64,000 nt of DNA from Cordylochernes scorpioides. Taxonomy: Eukaryota > Arthropoda > Arachnida > Pseudoscorpiones > Chernetidae. Both the position numbers and the translations under genes were made by a program. Positions 152 through 64,000 of this stretch are shown here, in pieces (position 1 is the first letter of the stretch; every line of letters begins with the position of its first letter). The notes under the pieces were generated by a model. That model did not search any database. It saw only the letters and a program-made list of their open reading frames with translations, and was not told the DNA's origin. The DNA lies in contig CP092879.1 of the NCBI GenBank assembly GCA_030710605.1, positions 48,419,946 through 48,483,945 of the forward strand, read 5' to 3'.

Positions 152-2430
152 TTACTGCAAGGCCAGGAGAGCACGATAGGCATCAGGAAGATCTATTTTA
201 CGGTTGATGCTGTTATGTCTGTGGGATTCTATGGATTCGAGAACTAATCGCTGGTGCTGGTTATGAATGCGTCTGTAATGTATGGTGGGGTGGTTGGTGT
301 TGAATGTATGGCCAGTATTGAGTGTGTGCTGGTAAAGGAGGGACCTGGTGTCTTGGTTGGAGATGTTTCTAGAATGCTCAGACATTCTGATGGCGACGGA
401 TCTACCTGTCTCGCCAACGTATGTGGCAGAGCATTGCTCACACGAGACAGAGTAGACCGCGCCAACAGAATGGAGGGGATCAGGGGGGGCATGCGATTTA
501 GTATATGGGTGACGGAGGGATGTGAGCAGGTTGGAGGAGTTTTTATATAAGGTGCGGATACCGTATGCTTTAAGGCTTCTGGCTATGTCGGCTGAGGAGG
601 GGGAGTAGGGAAGGAAACATAATGATCTGTAAATTTTAGGTTGGTTGGAGGGGCCAGGTGTATATGAATGTCTATTGATGAATTCAAGCGGAAACGATGC
701 TATGGAGAGGTGCGATATGATGAGATTTTTCTCAATTTCTTTAAATATATCGAGCGAACAGTGGGTATAGATTCTTTTAGTGAGAGCTTTTACTATGTTG
801 ATTTTGTGGGAAATGGGGCAGTGTGAATTGAAATGGGTATAACTGGGGGGACACTGTTTTTTGTAGTAGACTGTGGTGTGGAATGAGGATGCAGTACGTA
901 TTATTAGGATGTCTAGGAATGGGATGACCTGGTTTGATTCTATTTCCAAAGTAAAGGAGATGTTGGGGTTAAAACTATTGAGGGCTGCAAGTATGGTGCT
1001 CTCCTGGCCGTGTCTGCATAAGCAAAAGACGTCATCAATATAACGGCGCCATATTTGTATATCTATAGGGAGGGTACGGGTGATCCAGTTGTCTATTTCG
1101 GACATAGCGACTTCTGCGACAATAGAGGAAAGAGGGCTACCCATTGGCGAACCCTTAATTTGTCTGTAATGATTTTCTAGGAATGTGAAACAGTTCATGC
1201 TCAAGCAGAGCTTGGTAAGTTGTATTATGGATGAAGCTGTATGGGGATCTACACTATGTGAGCCAAGGAACCGCTCCAGACTATCTATGATGAGATTGTG
1301 GGGAAGACTGAGGTAGAGGGAGGTTACATCGAAGGAACACATTATAAAATGTGGGGCGGGTTTTAAGGCAGTTAACTCACTGATAAAGTGGGGGGTGCTA
1401 CGTATGGAGTATATATTCCTGTGGTTGTGTAACAGAGGGGAAAGGTAGTTAGAGAGGAATTTGGCCAATGGATAAGCTGGTGAAAGATGGTAGGCGATAA
1501 TCGGACGGAGTGGTACGTCCGGTTTATGGATTTTTGGCAGGCCGTAGATGTATGCTCTATTGGAAAGGTTGGAAATAAATATCTTGTAATCATCGGGGGT
1601 AATGTGCTTAGATTTTTTCAACTGTAGTAGGGAGGTTCTGAAAACTTTAACTAGAGAGAGGCTAACCTTGTCTGAGATAGGGGAGAAGGTGGTATCATCT
1701 CCGAGTAGATCGTGCATCTTGGCTCGGTAATCCTCTTGGTTCATGATGACGGTATTTGAGCCCTTGTCGGATCGGGTGATGACTATGGATTTACTCTGCT
1801 TAAGTCTTTGGAGTGTTCTTAGGTCTGCACGGTAGTTGGGAGGAGGGGTATAAGGTTTAGATAGAGTCTTGGCAACCAATGTTCTCACGGAATGTTTGTC
1901 TTGCAGGCTGTACTGTTTGATGGTAGATTCGACGGAGCTAATGACCTCAGGGATATTGGGCTTGGAGGGGATGCGGAACTTGAGGCCCTTCTCTAATAGT
2001 GATATTTCTGAGGGAGATAGGGTACGGTGTGACAAGTTGACTACATTTGACGACTGCTGCTTCTGATTGTAGGAGGCAAGGAGAGGGTATGAAAATTTCT
2101 TTTGCCAGAAGAGTAGTTTCCTCTGGTGCCTGAGTGATATGTTCTTTTCTTGCGCCCTGATATCATTTGTGATACCGATAATATGATTTGCAAGTTCTGC
2201 AGGAGGGACCTTTTGAGCTATTAGGAAAAGTAGCCCTTTGATTGATTTGGTCAGAAACCTTATGTTCGAAAAACAGCCCTTGATTCTGGCGTTGAGCAAT
2301 TGTTGTTGGGTTTTCCTAATGAGGATCCTGGAGAAAGGGTTATCAACGGGGTCCTTGAGCCTAAGAGAGGGAGGAATGAATCCAGCATTCTTGCAGTGAC
2401 GGTTGAATTGGAGATGGCTTCGCCATCGGC
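152..2430 (-). CDS. Penelope-like RT/GIY-YIG endonuclease, left copy
   Basis: Encodes a retroelement polyprotein that would copy element RNA and nick target DNA. The open frame runs from 2476 to 152 (774 codons), but the first 15 codons lie in the other arm, so the true start is not seen. Numbered on that frame: SDKGSNTVIM near 236-245, GLPKIHKP 312-319, RT motif A FDVTSLY 382-388, motif B GSPMGSPLS 442-450, motif C YIDDVF 479-484, and a GIY-YIG domain from about 673 (VYSVSC, then YVGETGRSVAIRM and a late glutamate in LVLESIESH). The catalytic aspartates are present and there is no internal stop. The copy looks young and nearly intact, lacking only its extreme 5' end. Confidence 0.92.
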
Positions 2431-4036
2431 AAATACCGTCATCATGAACCAAGAGGATTACCGAGCCAAGATGCACGATCTACTCGGAGATGATACCACC
2501 TTCTCCCCTATCTCAGACAAGGTTAGCCTCTCTCTAGTTAAAGTTTTCAGAACCTCCCTACTACAGTTGAAAAAATCTAAGCACATTACCCCCGATGATT
2601 ACAAAATATTTATTTCCAACCTTTCCAATAGAGCATACATCTACGGCCTGCCAAAAATCCATAAACCGGACGTACCACTCCGTCCGATTATCGCCTACCA
2701 TCTTTCACCAGCTTATCCATTGGCCAAATTCCTCTCTAACTACCTTTCCCCTCTGTTACACAACCACAGGAATATATACTCCATACGTAGCACCCCCCAC
2801 TTTATCAGTGAGTTAACTGCCTTAAAACCCGCCCCACATTTTATAATGTGTTCCTTCGATGTAACCTCCCTCTACCTCAGTCTTCCCCACAATCTCATCA
2901 TAGATAGTCTGGAGCGGTTCCTTGGCTCACATAGTGTAGATCCCCATACAGCTTCATCCATAATACAACTTACCAAGCTCTGCTTGAGCATGAACTGTTT
3001 CACATTCCTAGAAAATCATTACAGACAAATTAAGGGTTCGCCAATGGGTAGCCCTCTTTCCTCTATTGTCGCAGAAGTCGCTATGTCCGAAATAGACAAC
3101 TGGATCACCCGTACCCTCCCTATAGATATACAAATATGGCGCCGTTATATTGATGACGTCTTTTGCTTATGCAGACACGGCCAGGAGAGCACCATACTTG
3201 CAGCCCTCAATAGTTTTAACCCCAACATCTCCTTTACTTTGGAAATAGAATCAAACCAGGTCATCCCATTCCTAGACATCCTAATAATACGTACTGCATC
3301 CTCATTCCACACCACAGTCTACTACAAAAAACAGTGTCCCCCCAGTTATACCCATTTCAATTCACACTGCCCCATTTCCCACAAAATCAACATAGTAAAA
3401 GCTCTCACTAAAAGAATCTATACCCACTGTTCGCTCGATATATTTAAAGAAATTGAGAAAAATCTCATCATATCGCACCTCTCCATAGCATCGTTTCCGC
3501 TTGAATTCATCAATAGACATTCATATACACCTGGCCCCTCCAACCAACCTAAAATTTACAGATCATTATGTTTCCTTCCCTACTCCCCCTCCTCAGCCGA
3601 CATAGCCAGAAGCCTTAAAGCATACGGTATCCGCACCTTATATAAAAACTCCTCCAACCTGCTCACATCCCTCCGTCACCCATATACTAAATCGCATGCC
3701 CCCCCTGATCCCCTCCATTCTGTTGGCGCGGTCTACTCTGTCTCGTGTGAGCAATGCTCTGCCACATACGTTGGCGAGACAGGTAGATCCGTCGCCATCA
3801 GAATGTCTGAGCATTCTAGAAACATCTCCAACCAAGACACCAGGTCCCTCCTTTACCAGCACACACTCAATACTGGCCATACATTCAACACCAACCACCC
3901 CACCATACATTACAGACGCATTCATAACCAGCACCAGCGATTAGTTCTCGAATCCATAGAATCCCACAGACATAACAGCATCAACCGTAAAATAGATCTT
4001 CCTGATGCCTATCGTGCTCTCCTGGCCTTGCAGTAA
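2431..4036 (+). pseudogene. Penelope-like RT/GIY-YIG endonuclease, 5'-truncated right copy
   Basis: Same protein as the left copy, starting at its residue 241 (TVIMNQEDY) and running without stops to TAA at 4034-4036. It keeps all RT motifs (YIDDVF, GSPMGSPLS) and the GIY-YIG domain but lacks the N-terminal 240 codons. The frame stays open upstream to 2300 only because antisense of the left copy happens to lack stops, so that part is not native coding. 5' truncation fits target-primed reverse transcription. Confidence 0.88.
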
Positions 4037-4399: not shown

Positions 4400-5385
4400 C
4401 CGAGAAGATTATAACTGTCTTTATTCGCTGAGAAGATTTATGTTGAGCCAACTGAAATTAGTAAAGAATTAAGAGATTAAGGTCTTATTCTTTGAGTTTT
4501 ACACTAATTTCAATTACGCGATATGGACGGCGTTATAAGTTGGGTGGAAATGATTCGGCCGCAATGGGATGGTCTCCTGGAGGTGGTACGATCAAATACT
4601 TACTTATTGAATGCCGGGCGGGATCGCATGAAGCATTAAATGACATCGTGAAATGCTTAAAGAAACACCCTAGAAGATTGGGGATCGACAAAATGACGAC
4701 ATGGAAAATGCTCAACATTGTACATTGGCAGCAAAATGATATCTTGCTATTGTATGGACGACCACTTCTTCCTGAAATGTGCAGCGGATGTTAGTCCCAG
4801 AATTAGGTCCTTGAGGCGACACTTTCCTGTGCAGATGACATAAAGACGCATGACAAAACAGCACATGAGCATTTAAACTAGCTTCAATTCCTGCCATTTA
4901 TTAATTTAGTTGACCAATAGCTATAGAACCACTGGAGACCTCCATAACTGTGTGAATATTTTAGTGAGAAATGAGCGATTCAATTCTATGAGCCATGAGG
5001 TATCCTGTAAGATCGGAGTTGTACCCCATTCATTTTTTTTAATAGTAGCCAGTGCGAGATATTTCCAGGATTTTTTTTCCTAACTGTCATATAATTCGAA
5101 AACTAGAAAACTACACCATTTTAATACAGTTTACGTTTAGCATCCATGTGAACTCAATATGACTATTGAACGTAGATTGAAGATTAATGAGCGAGCCAAC
5201 CTAGAGAGAACGAGTTTAATAGGCTTACAATCAATAGTTGAAGCAAACTATTCGCACAAATTTGTTATGTTCTCTCTCTAAATGATCTATGACATTATAG
5301 GTTTTCTTAACAAGGTAACTACCCCGCCGAGTGTATATGGAGTTATAAAGCTTAAGGGTCATAGGCTGTTGGAATAGAGTAGTTC
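4400..5385. other. No recognisable gene
   Basis: A mixed-composition stretch after the retroelement tail. A 100-codon frame at 4492-4794 has no motif I know and opens on a non-ATG codon. No transposon ends were recognised. Confidence 0.4.
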
Positions 5386-7954: not shown

Positions 7955-9360
7955 TGTATGAATGGATTGGTTTAATGAATGTGTAAGAAGGTTAAAAAAC
8001 AATTATACTGTAAAGACCAAAGGTACTTTAGCATAGAATAGGGAACCAATAGGTTCAATTTTAAATTTGATTTCTTTATTTGTTAGGAACGATAGCCTCA
8101 CAGGGCTGTACAACTCTATTGTTAGGAAAGGTATTCGCTCCATTTTGTTAGGTCTCCCCTTTCGGGAGTATAAAATTTTAATTTCTATTACTAGGGTAAT
8201 CAAGTACTCTTTGTTATTTATATCAACTTGAATTTTAAGAGTCGTAGATAATGATCATATCTCGATTCTCAGACTGGAAGGTTGTGGGAGGTTATGATCA
8301 GACCAGAAACCCCACCAAACTTCCCCTCATTAGAGGAAACGAAGAGGTATAGATTGAATTTTATGCAGGATGGGGGATTTGTTTTAGCCATGCCGTATAG
8401 CCTGGGGTACAACGGCGCGACCTTGGGTAACAGATCTGACACCGTAGTTTCGACGCTTTTAGCGTGGCTGGAGCGAGGGTGTTGCAGACGGGAGGTCCTG
8501 TAAGATTGGCAAGTAGGCAGAGATTGCCCAGTTATTCTAGACGAAGTGTTTCCGTCTATTGAATTTTTTTTTGGTACCAGTTTGATCCCCCATAGCTAGC
8601 GGAAGTTTCTTCTAATAAAGGATTCGCCCTGCCATACGTTTTGTTGGAATGAATTCGAGCATAAGACCGATTCGAGAGACAGAATAAGTAATTATTAGGA
8701 CCTTCAACGAGTTTAAACTCGTTCCATGTTAGGATAAAATTTTAAAGTATTAGTTAACTATAATGACCGCGAACGAGACGCCAGAACAAGCCAGTGAGTC
8801 AAAGTTTTAGAAGTGTTGTATTGAGGACAGTAGAATTAAGAGCAGTTATACAGGGAGTAGAGTTCTGAAGGAATTTGTAAAAGGAACCAAAATTTCAGAT
8901 TGATAAAATTCAAATTTATAAGATGTAGATTTGTAGGATTCAGGTCAAATGAATAGAGAGTATATTAGTAGATGAAAGTAATATGAATTTCTTGGAAAGG
9001 GGAGGTAGCTGAACTGTACACACCCCAGAGGCAAGGTAAACGGAGCCACAAACAAAATAGTAGAAATTGATTAGTTTCTCTGTCAAACAGAGAGCTTTCT
9101 TCATACGGTTGTCACCCTAGATTTAAATGGACTGTGTAGTTTAATAGAGGTCTGGGATATATTCCATTTGACCAAGATTCTAAATGACGTACCCATCTGA
9201 GTTGAGAGTATTGTAACAGAGGAATCTAACACATAAGAGAAAACACACCCTCCAGTAGGATCGGGATAGACGAATATTACCCAGTGACCAACTCGTGATT
9301 CCAGACTGAATAAGATTGAAAAACTTAACTGAGATACTAAACCTTGAACCTTCAGCGCAC
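7955..9360. other. No recognisable gene
   Basis: Contains a 73-codon frame at 8282-8503 with no motif known to me. Phrases around 9020 (CCCCAGAGGCAAGG) recur diverged near 10010, so this and 9960-10700 may share an old repeat. Confidence 0.35.
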
Positions 9361-10929: not shown

Positions 10930-11217
10930 TTACACTATCGCCGGACTGTTTCTCTCTTTAGATTTTTGTTTTGGTAATACTATATCTTCTATTTTGATGA
11001 GGCCTGGGGCGTCTATGAAATTGATACTGGAGCCGTTGGCCATTTTGATTGGTGTTTCTTTCGGCGAATGAAAATGGAGAGAGAGATGAATAAAAGAAGG
11101 TTTTTTGCCAAAAGGCGGGAGATTCGATCGGAGTCGCTCAGTGAGAAGGACGATTTTTAGTCGGCCTGAGACGTAGAGGAGACCAGACCTTGCCGCCACT
11201 TTCGAGAAAAGGTAAGC
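10930..11217. other. Candidate promoter or first-exon patch
   Basis: A GC-richer island in AT-rich surroundings. On the plus strand it ends in a good splice-donor match, GAAAAG/GTAAGCC, near 11214. The SWEET coding exon in C is preceded by a splice acceptor, so a non-coding 5' exon must lie upstream, and if A and C are truly adjacent this patch is a candidate. On the minus strand an ATG in good context (around 11042) opens a 37-codon frame starting MANGSSINFIDAPG, which I do not recognise. Both readings are inference. Confidence 0.3.
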
Positions 11218-16599: not shown

Positions 16600-17520
16600 T
16601 AGAAAAGAGACCAGAGTGATCAAAAAGTGATCATTGATACAGGGCAGAATTTTATCCCTGGTCCCAGTAGATGGTATCAACAATGCTCACATTTCCCAGT
16701 CATAGCATCTTCAATTCAGTCTCAATAAACAAACACTTTATTAAATCAATAGGCTAGAGAGAATTCAATAAGAATGAAAGCCAACTTTAGTAAAGACTAG
16801 AAAGAGGGGGTTTCAATATATAAAAATTGTATAAACATCAACAACAAAAGTATTACAATGAAGTTAGAGACAAAAATGAAAGTGTTTTATAAAAATGAGA
16901 TGCCTTCTTTTGAAAGATAGCCAAAATATCAACCCTTTTGCTTTGCCGATCAAGTGTCTTTGTTTGATAGTAAGCCTTCTTCCAGCCAGGTATCTTTCAC
17001 CCTTTCACATGTCAGTTTGGGCCTTTATTCTGACACCTTTCATGTATCAATGCAGGATCTTAGCTGAGACATTCTACCTGTTCAATCTGTTATGCATTAT
17101 AGCTGAATTTGATGATATTGTGGTTATTAAAGGGAGTTGTAACTGACCTTGATTTTGACAATTAATTTTTTAACAATAAAGTTTTTTTACAGTGTTGGCA
17201 CACCCGGGATAAATCTATACCTTATGGTAAACAGCAGTGGGTATAACAAACAACATGAGCTAGCTTGTCCGGTACACAGCAAAAGGGTTTTTTAAATAAT
17301 AATATACAGCATATATAGATGGGAATATATTGCACTTGTTCCCGATATAAATAAATGATAAAATAAATAGTGTCTTGTTATTTCCAACAAGAGTGTTGCA
17401 GCTACTTAGTGCGAGTGATGATTGAGTGCCCTAACTAGCGGAGTGATGGCCTTACGAGAGATGGTCTTTGGGAGTAGGTTGAAATCATCTAATTCTCTAC
17501 ATTGTTGAGGTGTCGTGACT
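16600..17520. other. Downstream flank of the F-box gene
   Basis: No coding region recognised. The 83-codon plus-strand frame at 16895-17146 shows no domain. The region should include the 3' UTR of the minus-strand F-box gene, but no clear AATAAA on that strand was found close to its stop. Confidence 0.4.
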
Positions 17521-22290: not shown

Positions 22291-23030
22291 ATAATCAAAT
22301 AAATTAATCCTGTATGACGTTTCGGTAACAGCATTGTTACCATCATTTTTATTGTTGTTACCATTTTTTAATTATTTTGTATGATGATGGTAACAACGTT
22401 ATTACCGAAATGTTACATGCTATTAATTTATTTGGATTTGGTCTTTTTTTTTCTTGTAGCTATAATCAACAATCCAAATTGTGCTTTACCATTATTTCCA
22501 AGTTTTTGAAACACAAGGTAATAAGACCAAATCCAAATAAATAAAAGTATGTGACATTTCAGTAACAATGCTGTTATTGAAACATTACCTGCTTTTTATT
22601 TATTTGGATTTAGTCATATTACCTTGTGTTTCTAATCTATAATGTGCCTTATAATTTCAAAGTTTTTTTTTTTTTTGGATACGGCTTGATAAAAAAGGCT
22701 ACTTTTATCAAAATTGAAAACATTCTTAAGTTAAAAAACCTGCATTACAAGATTATTTTTCCCTTACACTAAGTGCATGTTTGGTGAGCCACCCTCTCCA
22801 GTTATAGTTCCAAATTTTATCAGATTTTTGAGCTATTTTTGATGCATGCGATTCTTTAAACAAAACATGATAAAGCACAATTTGTATTATAGATTTTAAA
22901 CACAAGGTAATAAGACCAAACCCAAATAAATAAATAGTGTTTAACGTTCGGTAAATGCTACGTTGTTACCGAAACATGACATACTATTTATTTGGATTTG
23001 GTCTTATTACCTTGTATTTAAACAAAACAA
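22288..23030. repeat. Three fold-back MITEs of family F1
   Basis: Copies at about 22288-22475, 22500-22650 and 22866-23030. Each has mirrored arms ACACAAGGTAATAAGACC, AAATCCAAATAAAT and a GTAACA/TGTTAC stem. The outermost bases (GATAAAGCACAATTTG) belong to the element as well. No coding capacity. All three recur in contig C (36455-37195). Confidence 0.8.
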
Positions 23031-23221: not shown

Positions 23222-23850
23222 AACAAATGATAAGGCACAATTTGGATTATAGATTATAAACACAAGGTGTGAGTTGACAACCATCATGACTGGGTTAAGT
23301 AGAATGCCTTTGTCATTAAGACTAGTAGGAGCACTACTCAGTGGCAGGCTGATTTAGCTCCAAAAGAAATGGCGGCCTTTGACATGAGGAACAGATGCCA
23401 TGTGCAGCTGCTCCTAACAAGGAGTATAAACGCTGCTAATCCTGTATCCCTGGATTAGGAGCCCTTACAGGGTACTATCAGCCGGGCCAGCTGAGCCCAG
23501 GTTTTTTAGTGAGCTTGTTACTGCTCCCCCTCCTCCTTTTTCATCCGGGCTTGGGACCGGCAAAGGCGGAGTTATAAACACAAGGTAATAAGACCAAATC
23601 CAAATAAATAAATGGTGAGTGACGTTTCGGTAACAGCATTGTTACCATCTTCAGACAAAAGTACTGAATGAGAAATTTTACCACAGCATATTTAATTTTT
23701 TTTTTTTTTTATAACAGTGACTATTTAAAATATGTTGTGGTAAAATTTCTCATTCAGTACTTTTGTCTGAAAATGGTAACAACGCTGAAACGTCACACAC
23801 TATTTATTTATTTGGATTTGGTCTTATTACCTTGTGTTTATTTTAAACAA
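23222..23850. repeat. F1 fold-back MITE interrupted by an R2 retroposon
   Basis: The left arm breaks after ACACAAGGT (23268) and resumes at 23572 with a repeat of TTATAAACACAAGGT. The right arm ends near 23850. The interruption is the R2 element. Confidence 0.8.
23269..23571 (+). mobile_element. R2, a SINE-like retroposon with 15-bp target duplication
   Basis: A 303-bp GC-rich unit flanked by TTATAAACACAAGGT on both sides (23254-23268 and 23572-23586). It contains GCCTTTGTCATTAAGAC, GCACTACTCAGTGGCAGG, CCTGTATCCCTGGATTAGG and TTGGGACCGGCAAAGGCGG. The target duplication indicates retroposition. Its head could be tRNA-like, but no clean B box was seen. Short frames in it (MEYKRCSSC...) recur only because the repeat does. 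Confidence 0.7.
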
Positions 23851-36454: not shown

Positions 36455-37195
36455 TAATCAAATAAATTAATCCTGTATGACGTGTTTCGGTAACAGCATT
36501 GTTACCATCATTTTTATTGTTGTTACCATTTTTTAAAATTATTTTGTATGATGATGGTAACAACGTTATTACCAAAACGTTACACACTATTAATTTATTT
36601 GGATTTGGTCTTTTTTTTCTTGTAGCTATAATCAATAATCCAAATTGTGCCTTACCATTATTTCAAAGTTTTTGAAACACAAGGTAATAAGACCAAATCC
36701 AAATAAATAAAAAGTATGTGACATTTCAGTAACAATGCTGTTATTGAAACATTACCTGCTTTTTATTTATTTGGATTTAGTCATATTACCTTGTGTTTCT
36801 AATCTATAATGTGCCTTATAATTTCAAAGTTTTTTTTTTTTTTTGGATACGGCTTGATAAAAAAGGCTACTTTTATCAAAATTGAAAACATTCTTTAGTT
36901 AAAAAACCTGCATTACAAGATTATTTTTCCCTTACACTAAGTGCATGTTTGGTGAGCCACCCTCTCCAGTTATAGTTCCAAATTTTATCAGATTTTTGAG
37001 CTATTTTTGATGCATGCGATTCTTTAAACAAAACATGATAAAGCACAATTTGTATTATAGATTTTAAACACAAGGTAATAAGACCAAACCCAAATAAATA
37101 AATAGTGTTTAACGTTCGGTAAATGCTACGTTGTTACCGAAACATGACATACTATTTATTTGGATTTGGTCTTATTACCTTGTATTTAAACAAAA
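36455..37195. repeat. Three fold-back MITEs of family F1 (C)
   Basis: Orthologs of 22288-23030, in the same order. Confidence 0.8.
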
Positions 37196-37369: not shown

Positions 37370-37950
37370 AACAAATGATAAGGCACAATTTGGATTATAT
37401 ATTATAAACACAAGGTGTGAGTTGACAACCATCATGACTGGGTGAAGTAGAATGCCTTTGTCATTAAGACTAGGAGCACTACTCAGTGGCAGGCCGACTT
37501 AGCTCCAAAAGAAATGGCCGCCTCTGACATGAGGAACAGACGCCATGTGCAGCCGCTCCTAACATGGAGTACATACTCATCCTGTATCCCTGGATTAGGA
37601 GCCCTTACAGGGTACTATCAGCCAGACCAGCTGAACCCAGGTTTTTTAGCCTGGCAAAGGCGGAGTTATAAACACAAGGTAATAAGACCAAATATAAATA
37701 AATAAATAGTGTGTGAGGTTTTGGTAACAGCGTTGTTACCATCTTCAGACAAAGTACTGAATGATAAATTTTACCACAGCATGTTTTATTTATTATTATT
37801 ATTTTTTATTTTGATAACGGTAACTATTTAAAACATGCTGTTGTAAAATTTCTCATTCAGTACTTTTGTCTGAAGATGGTAAGAATGCTGTTACCGAAAC
37901 GTCACACACTATTTATTTGGATTTGGTCTTATTACCTTGTGTTTATTTTA
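37370..37950. repeat. F1 fold-back MITE with R2 insertion (C)
   Basis: Same nested arrangement as in B. The R2 unit (about 37404-37667) has lost about 50 bp near its 3' end but is flanked by the same ATAAACACAAGGT repeat. Confidence 0.75.
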
Positions 37951-41574: not shown

Positions 41575-41752
41575 CACTAGAACCTCCATGAAAGGACACT
41601 CATGCTAGAGGAAACCTCTCTACAAAGGACAGTTTTCATATGAAAAATTATAATTTTTTACTATTTAGATCTTCTCTGGTAAGAGGATACCTCTCGAAAA
41701 AGAACATTTTGGCATTGCAATTTGGTGTCCTTTACAGAGAGATTCTACTATA
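41575..41752. mobile_element. pogo-like MITE family P1
   Basis: CACTAGAACCTCCATGAAAG to GATTCTACTATAG. A second P1 fragment lies just upstream (about 41385-41514). Confidence 0.7.
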
Positions 41753-45244: not shown

Positions 45245-45895
45245 TAATTTAACACAAGATAATAAAACCAAATACAAATAAATATGCATTATTTATTTGG
45301 ATTTGGTCTTATTACCTTGTGTTTATAATCTATAATTCAAATTGTGCCTTATAAACACAAGGTAATAAGACCAAATAAATAAATAGTGTGTGACGTTTCG
45401 GTAATAGCATTGTTACCATCTTCAGACAAAAGTACTGAAGTAATGAAGATGGTAACAACGCTGTTATCGAAATGTCACACACTATTTATTTATTAGGATT
45501 TGGTCTTATTACTTTGTGTTTATAATCTATAATTCAAATTGTGCTTTATAAACACAAGGTAATAAGACCAAATAAATAAATAGTGTGTGACGTTTTGGTA
45601 ACAACGCTGTTACTTAAACGTCACACACTATTTATTTATTTGGATTTGGTCTTATTACCTTGTGTTTATAATCTATAATCTGAATTGTGCCTTATTGTTT
45701 AGATTTATTCTTTTGTCTGATGATGGTAACAACATTGTTACCAAAATGTCATATACGGGGCACATCCCCTGCATGATCATCTATATTTTAGTTTTTTTCC
45801 ATTTTTAATGTAAATTATTGACAAGAAGTCAATAAAATTTGTTTCAATTGTCTTTTAATTTATTTGGATTTGGTCTTATTACCTTGTAGTTTTGT
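45245..45895. repeat. Cluster of four fold-back F1 elements
   Basis: Copies at about 45245-45345, 45352-45545, 45545-45690 and 45700-45895. Each has ACACAAGGTAATAAGACC arms. The fourth contains an insert after GTCATATACG. Loop lengths vary from near zero to about 100 bp. Confidence 0.75.
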
Positions 45896-48429: not shown

Positions 48430-48839
48430 CTAGCCGAATGACCCGGGCAACGCCCGTGTTTTACCCGATTGAATGTTTTTATTCAAATACTATTTGTTAC
48501 AATTATAAATTGGCGCCTTAAATAAATGCATATATTAGTTAATAACTATAGCCTATGTGCTTTATCTGTCTATGTACTGTTGGCTTCCGTAGGCGTCTCT
48601 TACTGGGAAAAAGAAAGAGAGGATTCCATTTGGTTATTATCTAATATATGCATTTATTTAGGGAGCGACCCGCTCCAACACAATAGTTACAAAGACGAAA
48701 TAGCGAGTGGGGGGGGGGCAAAGGTGGCGTGATCGTAGCCAACCAATAGGAGGGCGCCATTCCAAAAAAAAAAGCAAACGGTGACAGAGGTGAATGATTA
48801 AGAGATGAAGAATTGATGACGCTCGTAACTGTATATAGA
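48430..48839 (-). mobile_element. Non-autonomous Helitron, C only
   Basis: The minus strand starts TCTATATACAG and ends with hairpin GGGCGTTGCCC, GGGTCATTCGG and CTAG. Contig B has the uninterrupted host site TAGATCAATTATCTCCC (30855-30871). No target duplication, as expected for Helitrons. 410 bp, non-coding. Confidence 0.85.
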
Positions 48840-63004: not shown

Positions 63005-63897
63005 CTAGCCGAATGACCCGGGCAACGCCCAGGTTTTACCCGATTAAATGTTTTTATTTAAATACTATTCGTTACAATTATAAATTGGCGGCGTGGATGT
63101 CACTCTTGTGAAACGTCCCGCTCCAAACTTTGTGTCTGAGAAGCGATATTTTTATAGAAAGATGATCTGGCTTTTGTTTTCTGCTCGAATGAATGTTTTT
63201 CTGTTAGAATTTTGTTCCTGCATACAAAATAATGAGCTGGTTTCACCTGTGGTCTCTGCTTTTTGGAATTTTTTCCCGATATAATTTTGTATCTGATAAT
63301 CTTACATGATACAGCAATATCGTCATCATCATTTTCTGACTAATAATATATAGTTTTAATAATTGATTTATATATTTTTTAAAATAGCCTATCGTCTTCC
63401 CCGTATTTTTTTACCTATGTATGGAAATTTTGGTTTGAATTAGTGAACTACTGCAAATTTGTATAAAAAAAAAAACACACAAACAACATAAACAAACATA
63501 CAAACATTCATTTTTATATATATATGTAATATAATATAATATAATAATATAGAAGATATAATATAAATGAGTTTTAAAAATTGTTTTAAAAAAATGCATC
63601 GGCCGGGAATCGAACCCGGGCCGCCCGCGTGGCAGGCGAGCATTCTACCACTGAGCCACCGATGCGTATACAAAATGGCCATATTTGGGTATTCATTCCA
63701 TTCCGGATTACTCCGCGTAAAAAAAAAGTTCTTCAAATGAAAAAAAGAAATAGCCAAAAATACTAATCAAAATGCAGCCGAAAATTTTCCTCAGGTTTAT
63801 AAAAAGCGACATGCAAAATTTGGTACCAATTGGTTCAGTAGTTTTTGAGTTTATCGCGAAACAGACAGACAGACAGAAATTGACTTTTATATATATA
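63005..63897 (-). mobile_element. Non-autonomous Helitron carrying tRNA-Gly
   Basis: The minus-strand 3' end has the GGGCGTTGCCC hairpin, GGGTCATTCGG and CTAG next to T. The 5' region has TATATATATAAAAGTC and CTGTCTGTCTGTCTG. The very 5' TC is displaced by a second Helitron whose CTAG starts at 63898. 3' part is nearly identical to the Helitron at 48430. Length about 893 bp. Confidence 0.78.
63595..63665 (-). tRNA. tRNA-Gly (GCC)
   Basis: 71 nt. Acceptor arms GCATCGG and CCGATGC pair fully. Anticodon arm CTCGC-CTGCCAC-GCGGG has GCC at the centre. The T arm CCGGG-TTCGATT-CCCGG is intact and serves as B box, with discriminator A. The D stem has one C-A mismatch at position 11-24 compared with the usual GTTC/GAAT. 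A T7 run (complement of 63588-63594) directly follows as a Pol III terminator. It lies inside a Helitron on the same strand. Confidence 0.93.
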
Positions 63898-64000
63898 CTA
63901 GGCGAATGACCCGGCTTCGCCCGAGAAATCCCTTGGGTGCAATTTCCTTCATACTAAAAGTATATCAATAATAAATATTAGAAGTGCCATAGAATAGCAA
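63898..64000 (-). mobile_element. Second Helitron, 3' end, runs off the window
   Basis: CTAG at 63898-63901, then GCGAATGACCCGGCTTCGCC; on the minus strand this is the GGGCGAAGCCGGG hairpin before CTAG. It is inserted at the 5' terminus of the tRNA-bearing Helitron. Confidence 0.72.

Follow-up and report, generated by a model that had tools for sequence, protein, structure and literature searches.

A tRNA-Gly(GCC) gene lies near one end of the window (the whole 64-kb stretch of DNA analyzed here, C17:48419946-48483945), enclosed in an element with the structure of a Helitron (Table 1). ARAGORN and Rfam (RF00005, 58.6 bits) both detect the gene, in each case as the sole match of that scan in the 64 kb. 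Read along the minus strand from 63897 to 63005, the element begins with a TA-rich stretch and AAAAGTCAATTTCTGTC, and finishes with the hairpin, TCATTCGG, and CTAG. The tRNA is situated ~230 nt from the element 5' end, in the same sense as the element. Its A and B boxes match what we take to be the Pol III box consensus, and together with the terminator they provide the sequence features of a tRNA-Gly gene with a putative promoter. The sequence-only reading of this DNA had described a complete-looking tRNA gene with its terminator, oriented like the Helitron around it, whose hairpin, CTAG, and A/T insertion site were visible; all of this holds.

Table 1. Features of the tRNA-bearing element and related sequences in the window.
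Feature	Position	Strand	Evidence or remark
Non-autonomous Helitron copy, T11C subfamily	63005..63897	-	5' end 63897 (TC start missing), 3' end 63005
3' terminal CTAG, then T	63005..63008	-	Sequence; minus-strand reading
3' terminal hairpin, 8 nt before CTAG	63017..63033	-	Sequence; fold z -2.52 for 63005-63045
tRNA-Gly(GCC) gene, T11C D-stem mismatch at 63655	63595..63665	-	ARAGORN, Rfam, fold
Pol III A box TGGCTCAGTGG	63648..63658	-	Sequence
Pol III B box GGTTCGATTCC	63606..63616	-	Sequence
T7 run directly 3' of tRNA, Pol III terminator-like	63588..63594	-	Sequence
Cassette common to unit E, absent from tRNA-less relatives	63551..63707	-	Outer limits approximate
3' end of second Helitron, head to tail upstream	63898..64000	-	Sequence
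Isolated copy of same Helitron 3' end	48430..48515	-	95% identity over 86 bp

The 5' boundary near 63897 is genuine, but the window copy lacks the initial TC, and the CTAG of another Helitron abuts it directly. That second element runs past the end of the window and also bears a tRNA-Gly(gcc) (L009:1760-1830). A 98.9% copy of the window element (L010) is located 34 kb away; as the two have the same flanks, L010 looks like a segmental duplicate. At the other end of the window are inverted copies of one reverse-transcriptase ORF (152-2476, minus strand, and 2300-4036, plus strand), the first of which contains an RVT_1 domain. A C-terminal stretch resembles the GIY-YIG domain of Penelope-like elements.

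The D-stem mismatch of the window tRNA is confirmed as a C for T at tRNA position 11. Canonical copies of this tRNA-Gly score 66.7 bits in Rfam, compared with 58.6 bits for the window form, and adopt a cloverleaf as their minimum-energy fold. Neither the window form (T11C) nor a second variant with a T-stem change (position 48, C to A) yields a cloverleaf in such a fold, which ignores base modification. Genome-wide, the exact canonical tRNA occurs at 1,792 places, the exact T-stem form at 1,310, and the exact T11C form at 469. It had been suggested that the mismatch could mean early decay; since 469 exact copies share it, it is not private to the window copy and marks a subfamily.

We find that the element is repeated as a unit. 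Forty of 4,623 candidates were scored in the element search, giving 45 matching pieces, from which the 40 main places were taken, window copy included. The element extends end to end at 37 of these 40 places (the exceptions are L038, L046, and L048), with flanks that are mostly unrelated. All 37 full-length copies end in CTAG followed by T, and 29 begin with TC; those without TC are the window copy, L010, and six others. When both ends were strictly required, 101 loci gave 44 elements, which are not all independent (some loci overlap and some are segmental duplicates). The base after the element is T in 44/44, and the base before it is A in 37/44. The T-arm string of the tRNA is present in 39 of the 44, while the other five have either a mutated tRNA (L016, L039, L045, and L108) or none (L083). 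Among the 39 elements with a T-arm string, the A box string is found in 37, and a run of at least four Ts soon after the tRNA is found in every one.

Empty sites provide a second line of evidence. At L014, a tandem repeat is interrupted by the element, and other units of the repeat show the exact uninterrupted junction. The exact junction is also seen in other repeats for L025, L028, and L054/L093 (one site, duplicated), with small differences further out. These empty sites lack a target duplication, and the site at L025 is G|T. They were judged on seven junction-spanning alignments, the remaining matches (many of them TA-rich or inside Helitrons) being set aside. An alignment at L009 was rejected as an empty site, as it displays only the start of the neighboring Helitron.

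The family thus has a 3' CTRR with a hairpin just before it and, at the family level, a 5' TC, and it inserts between A and T with no duplication of the target. This is strong evidence that the surrounding element is a non-autonomous Helitron carrying a tRNA. The examined loci do hold many nested and partial Helitron pieces, and such a background could in principle place an ordinary tRNA locus between two unrelated Helitron fragments. That reading is refuted by the same end-to-end order in 37 of the 40 copies, together with the empty sites, and we give it almost no weight; the two ends belong together. Tandem Helitrons with two tRNA-Gly copies are also seen (L082, L090, L094, and L105), and four same-strand pairs lie 359-410 bp apart among the matches listed for the exact T11C tRNA. 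In L090 and L105, the 5' flank is common and the 3' flank different, as if the composite had moved as one.

Both the tRNA and the 5' end of the element were followed through the genome. Among 30 loci with the exact canonical tRNA (the first places on C1), 26 are in the 5' half of this Helitron, three are in a different tRNA-Gly-bearing repeat that we call unit E (L049, L050, and L065), and one is ordinary-looking (L073). In two copies of unit E (L050 and L065), copies of one ~55-bp stretch flank the cassette on both sides. Conversely, among 30 loci selected through the element 5' end (again the first on C1), the tRNA is present in 25 and absent from five. The five tRNA-less relatives diverge directly after GAGTAA, and two of them (L086 and L098) proceed to a Helitron 3' end of their own, with a hairpin and CTAG. 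We considered an autonomous role for the tRNA-less copies and rejected it, as L086 and L098 end within ~1 kb and no ORF longer than 118 aa was found in the five tRNA-less stretches.

The stretch common to the Helitron and unit E is ~150 bp long, comprising 38 nt 5' of the tRNA, the tRNA itself, and ~42 nt 3' of it. A tRNA with intact Pol III boxes within a repeat could suggest a tRNA-derived SINE that inserted into a Helitron. However, the common cassette includes sequence 5' of the tRNA, and a T-run terminator, with no A-rich tail, directly follows the tRNA. We therefore reject a SINE origin, which would predict a tRNA at the 5' end, a tail, and a target duplication, and consider it very improbable.

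The idea that this family carries the tRNA in many copies is borne out by genome-wide counts. With up to three mismatches, the tRNA 70-mer occurs at 17,359 places in the 2.62-Gb genome (24 contigs), while its reversed control occurs at none, which excludes chance. At the same threshold, a 34-mer of the element 5' end occurs at 11,027 places, a 70-mer of that end at 8,299, and a marker of the tRNA-less relatives at 2,702. The exact 3'-terminal 20-mer, which belongs to elements with or without the tRNA, occurs at 41,720 places. The tRNA 70-mer outnumbers the 5'-end 70-mer, and the latter (up to three mismatches) lies upstream of 22 of the 30 perfect tRNA copies. Thus, other or broken 5' ends explain the surplus only in part.

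We consider it highly probable (roughly nine in ten) that a Helitron captured a tRNA-Gly(GCC) cassette, which then spread by rolling-circle transposition. A non-autonomous Helitron would have captured a piece of ~150-160 bp that included, besides the complete tRNA gene, the sequence flanking it on the 5' side and the T-run terminator; in the element, this piece now follows a leading segment of ~190 nt. Rolling-circle transposition, presumably with RepHel proteins acting in trans, would then have multiplied the composite, giving rise to several subfamilies and to thousands of insertions, most of them with A before and T after. This proposal starts from direct observations, namely how the element ends and inserts, how often it occurs, that its 5' end is found both with the tRNA and without it, and that two subfamilies have broken stems. 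Capture and rolling-circle copying, with mobilization in trans, are proposed because they follow from established Helitron biology. The source of the captured piece may have been a host tRNA locus or unit E.

We also sought a link to an autonomous partner. A search for RepHel domains scored 150 matches of 1,987 candidates, and L109 encodes a helicase-like C-terminus that falls below Pfam cut-offs. Attempts to link RepHel elements to the ends of the tRNA-Gly Helitron failed. Among the matches listed, no exact 3'-terminal 20-mer lies within 50 kb of the RepHel copy at C1:2999987, and the listed 3' ends near it mismatch. No matching terminus is present in one 1.3-kb stretch 3' of another RepHel ORF (in L109); this stretch contains a 5S-bearing repeat.

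The tRNA could be mainly a passenger, or it could be a part of the element that is of use. Stem-breaking changes are fixed in two subfamilies that have spread (T11C and T-stem), and both leave strings that fit what we assume to be the A and B box consensus. The T-stem subfamily was tested with 33 of the 37 full-length copies, leaving out L009 and L010 (window type), L022 (mixed marks), and the duplicate L035. Its tRNA does not differ from the rest of the element in the frequency of changes (17/2309 vs. 218/26185, P = 0.72), except that non-CpG sites show fewer in the tRNA (6/1782 vs. 188/24404, P = 0.043). A reading of the T-stem subfamily as the youngest was rejected, as the comparison of copies and consensuses does not show this.

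A second sample consisted of 25 5'-anchored copies from four subfamilies. Unmasked, the tRNA has proportionally fewer changes than the flank (20/1680 vs. 115/5408, P = 0.014), with L101, whose tRNA is rearranged, excluded from the tRNA count. With homopolymers masked and L101 dropped entirely (24 copies), they are again rarer in the tRNA (20/1680 vs. 56/2181, P = 0.002). When only singletons are counted, the difference is not significant (20/1680 vs. 38/2181, P = 0.18). Subfamily consensuses differ at 0-2 of 70 tRNA sites, compared with 5-14 of ~219 flank sites. In new copies, tRNA and flank mutate at similar rates, while inherited changes seem to be rarer in the tRNA. The substitution tests disagree on whether the tRNA may be under selection.

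These results bear on the possibility that the tRNA promoter or transcript helps the Helitron, through transcription of the 5' region, donor opening, or insulation, such that master elements keeping the tRNA spread better. The deficit of changes in the masked sample would fit such a role, as would the box-like strings retained in both stem-broken subfamilies and the recurrence of other Pol III genes at Helitrons (tRNA-Thr in antisense near 3' ends, and a 5S junction past the RepHel domain; see below). Nevertheless, the T-stem subfamily as a whole shows no difference between tRNA and flank, and the difference among singletons alone is not significant. Furthermore, the tRNA-less relatives have also reached thousands of places, and the two subfamilies spread despite their broken tRNA stems. 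We regard a promoter role as unlikely, though far less so than a SINE origin, and suggest that the tRNA has been carried mainly as a passenger of the captured cassette.

Other Pol III genes are found in the vicinity of these elements. ARAGORN detected 121 tRNAs in the 101 loci: 110 Gly(gcc), seven Thr(ggt), and one each of acc, gtc, Tyr, and Phe. Those with acc and gtc anticodons are mutated tRNA-Gly by sequence, and, among the seven tRNA-Thr, three are in L094 and L033/L035 are duplicates. tRNA-Thr(GGT)-like genes lie antisense beside the 3' end of the tRNA-Gly Helitron at L087:778-850 and L088:2129-2204. A similar arrangement occurs at L050:1890-1962, where Rfam gives only 31.7 bits and ARAGORN reports no tRNA. 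A tRNA-Thr-like 72-mer occurs at 5,351 places with up to three mismatches, none of them exact, and many of those listed have an acceptor-stem change. A tRNA-Phe (L044:1597-1669) and an intron-bearing tRNA-Tyr (L034:2021-2111) are also present, near repeat pieces reading AACACAAGGTAATAAGACC.

A full-length 5S rRNA gene (114.3 bits) is located between inverted repeats at L109:556-900 (C2:3628300-3629600), directly after the helicase-like C-terminus. A 49-mer spanning this junction, which contains only the start of the 5S gene, occurs at 365 places genome-wide with up to three mismatches. For RepHel domains on C1-C6 (53 among the 150 listed), the 5 kb downstream contain an exact junction on the same strand in 34/53, and none has one upstream. 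The spacing is the same in 29 of these 34, and a second copy often lies 441 bp beyond the first. Seen from the other side, of the 97 exact junctions on C1-C6, 45 have a listed RepHel domain nearby and 52 stand apart from any on that list. Rfam found no 5S copy in the 64-kb window. Several inverted-repeat elements like the one around the 5S gene do occur there (22509-22631, 23573-23841, 36675-36798, 37667-37946, and 45251-45892), and the motif CTGAAGATGG...CCGAAACG resembles hammerhead-type repeats of Penelope-like elements.

The antisense tRNA-Thr genes near Helitron 3' ends and the 5S junctions at RepHel domains suggest that Pol III genes are recurrent cargo in this genome. A bolder version holds that they are useful Helitron parts: tRNA-Gly on the 5' side, antisense tRNA-Thr on the 3' side, and 5S beyond the RepHel ORF, each acquired separately and kept for promoters or terminators that aid transcription, donor opening, or copying. 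We view this version as doubtful. If true, the host would carry, as a by-product, potential tRNA-Gly genes by the thousand and potential 5S genes by the hundred.

The cargo for which Helitrons are known consists of pieces of protein-coding genes, and gene capture has been described in maize and bats (see also PMC4778049). Among other transposable elements, tRNA- and 5S-derived SINEs and Cassandra retrotransposons, which contain 5S sequence, carry Pol III gene sequence. Those are retrotransposons, whereas the carrier here is a DNA element in which the tRNA is internal and without a tail. The number of tRNA genes counted in such a genome cannot be read as the number of functional genes. Questions that can now be tested are whether a tRNA pool can be inflated by transposons, whether copies of this kind undergo silencing, and whether Helitrons benefit from Pol III promoters.

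Our element resembles these Helitron captures in its terminal TC and CTRR, 3' hairpin, insertion between A and T, and host fragments as cargo. It differs from them in that the cargo is a complete Pol III gene, present in thousands of near-intact copies. Among the entries listed in our searches of an open-access library, none named a Helitron with a tRNA-Gly, and the one close report concerns an Arabidopsis tRNA-Cys cluster that overlaps Helitron annotations (PMC10701932). The two cases are alike in that tRNA genes occur with Helitron-like sequence, but the Arabidopsis cluster is local and tandem, with 4-6 units. That report states that no case of a non-coding RNA would precede a tRNA captured by a Helitron, and the authors' own Helitron predictions across the cluster were not reliable. 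As an example of a small-RNA gene carried by a Helitron, the element described here is unusually clear. Dada elements (PMC3706591, PMC8869645), likewise DNA transposons, are reported to be associated with tRNA and snRNA genes; however, Dada elements insert into small-RNA genes as targets, whereas here the gene is the cargo.
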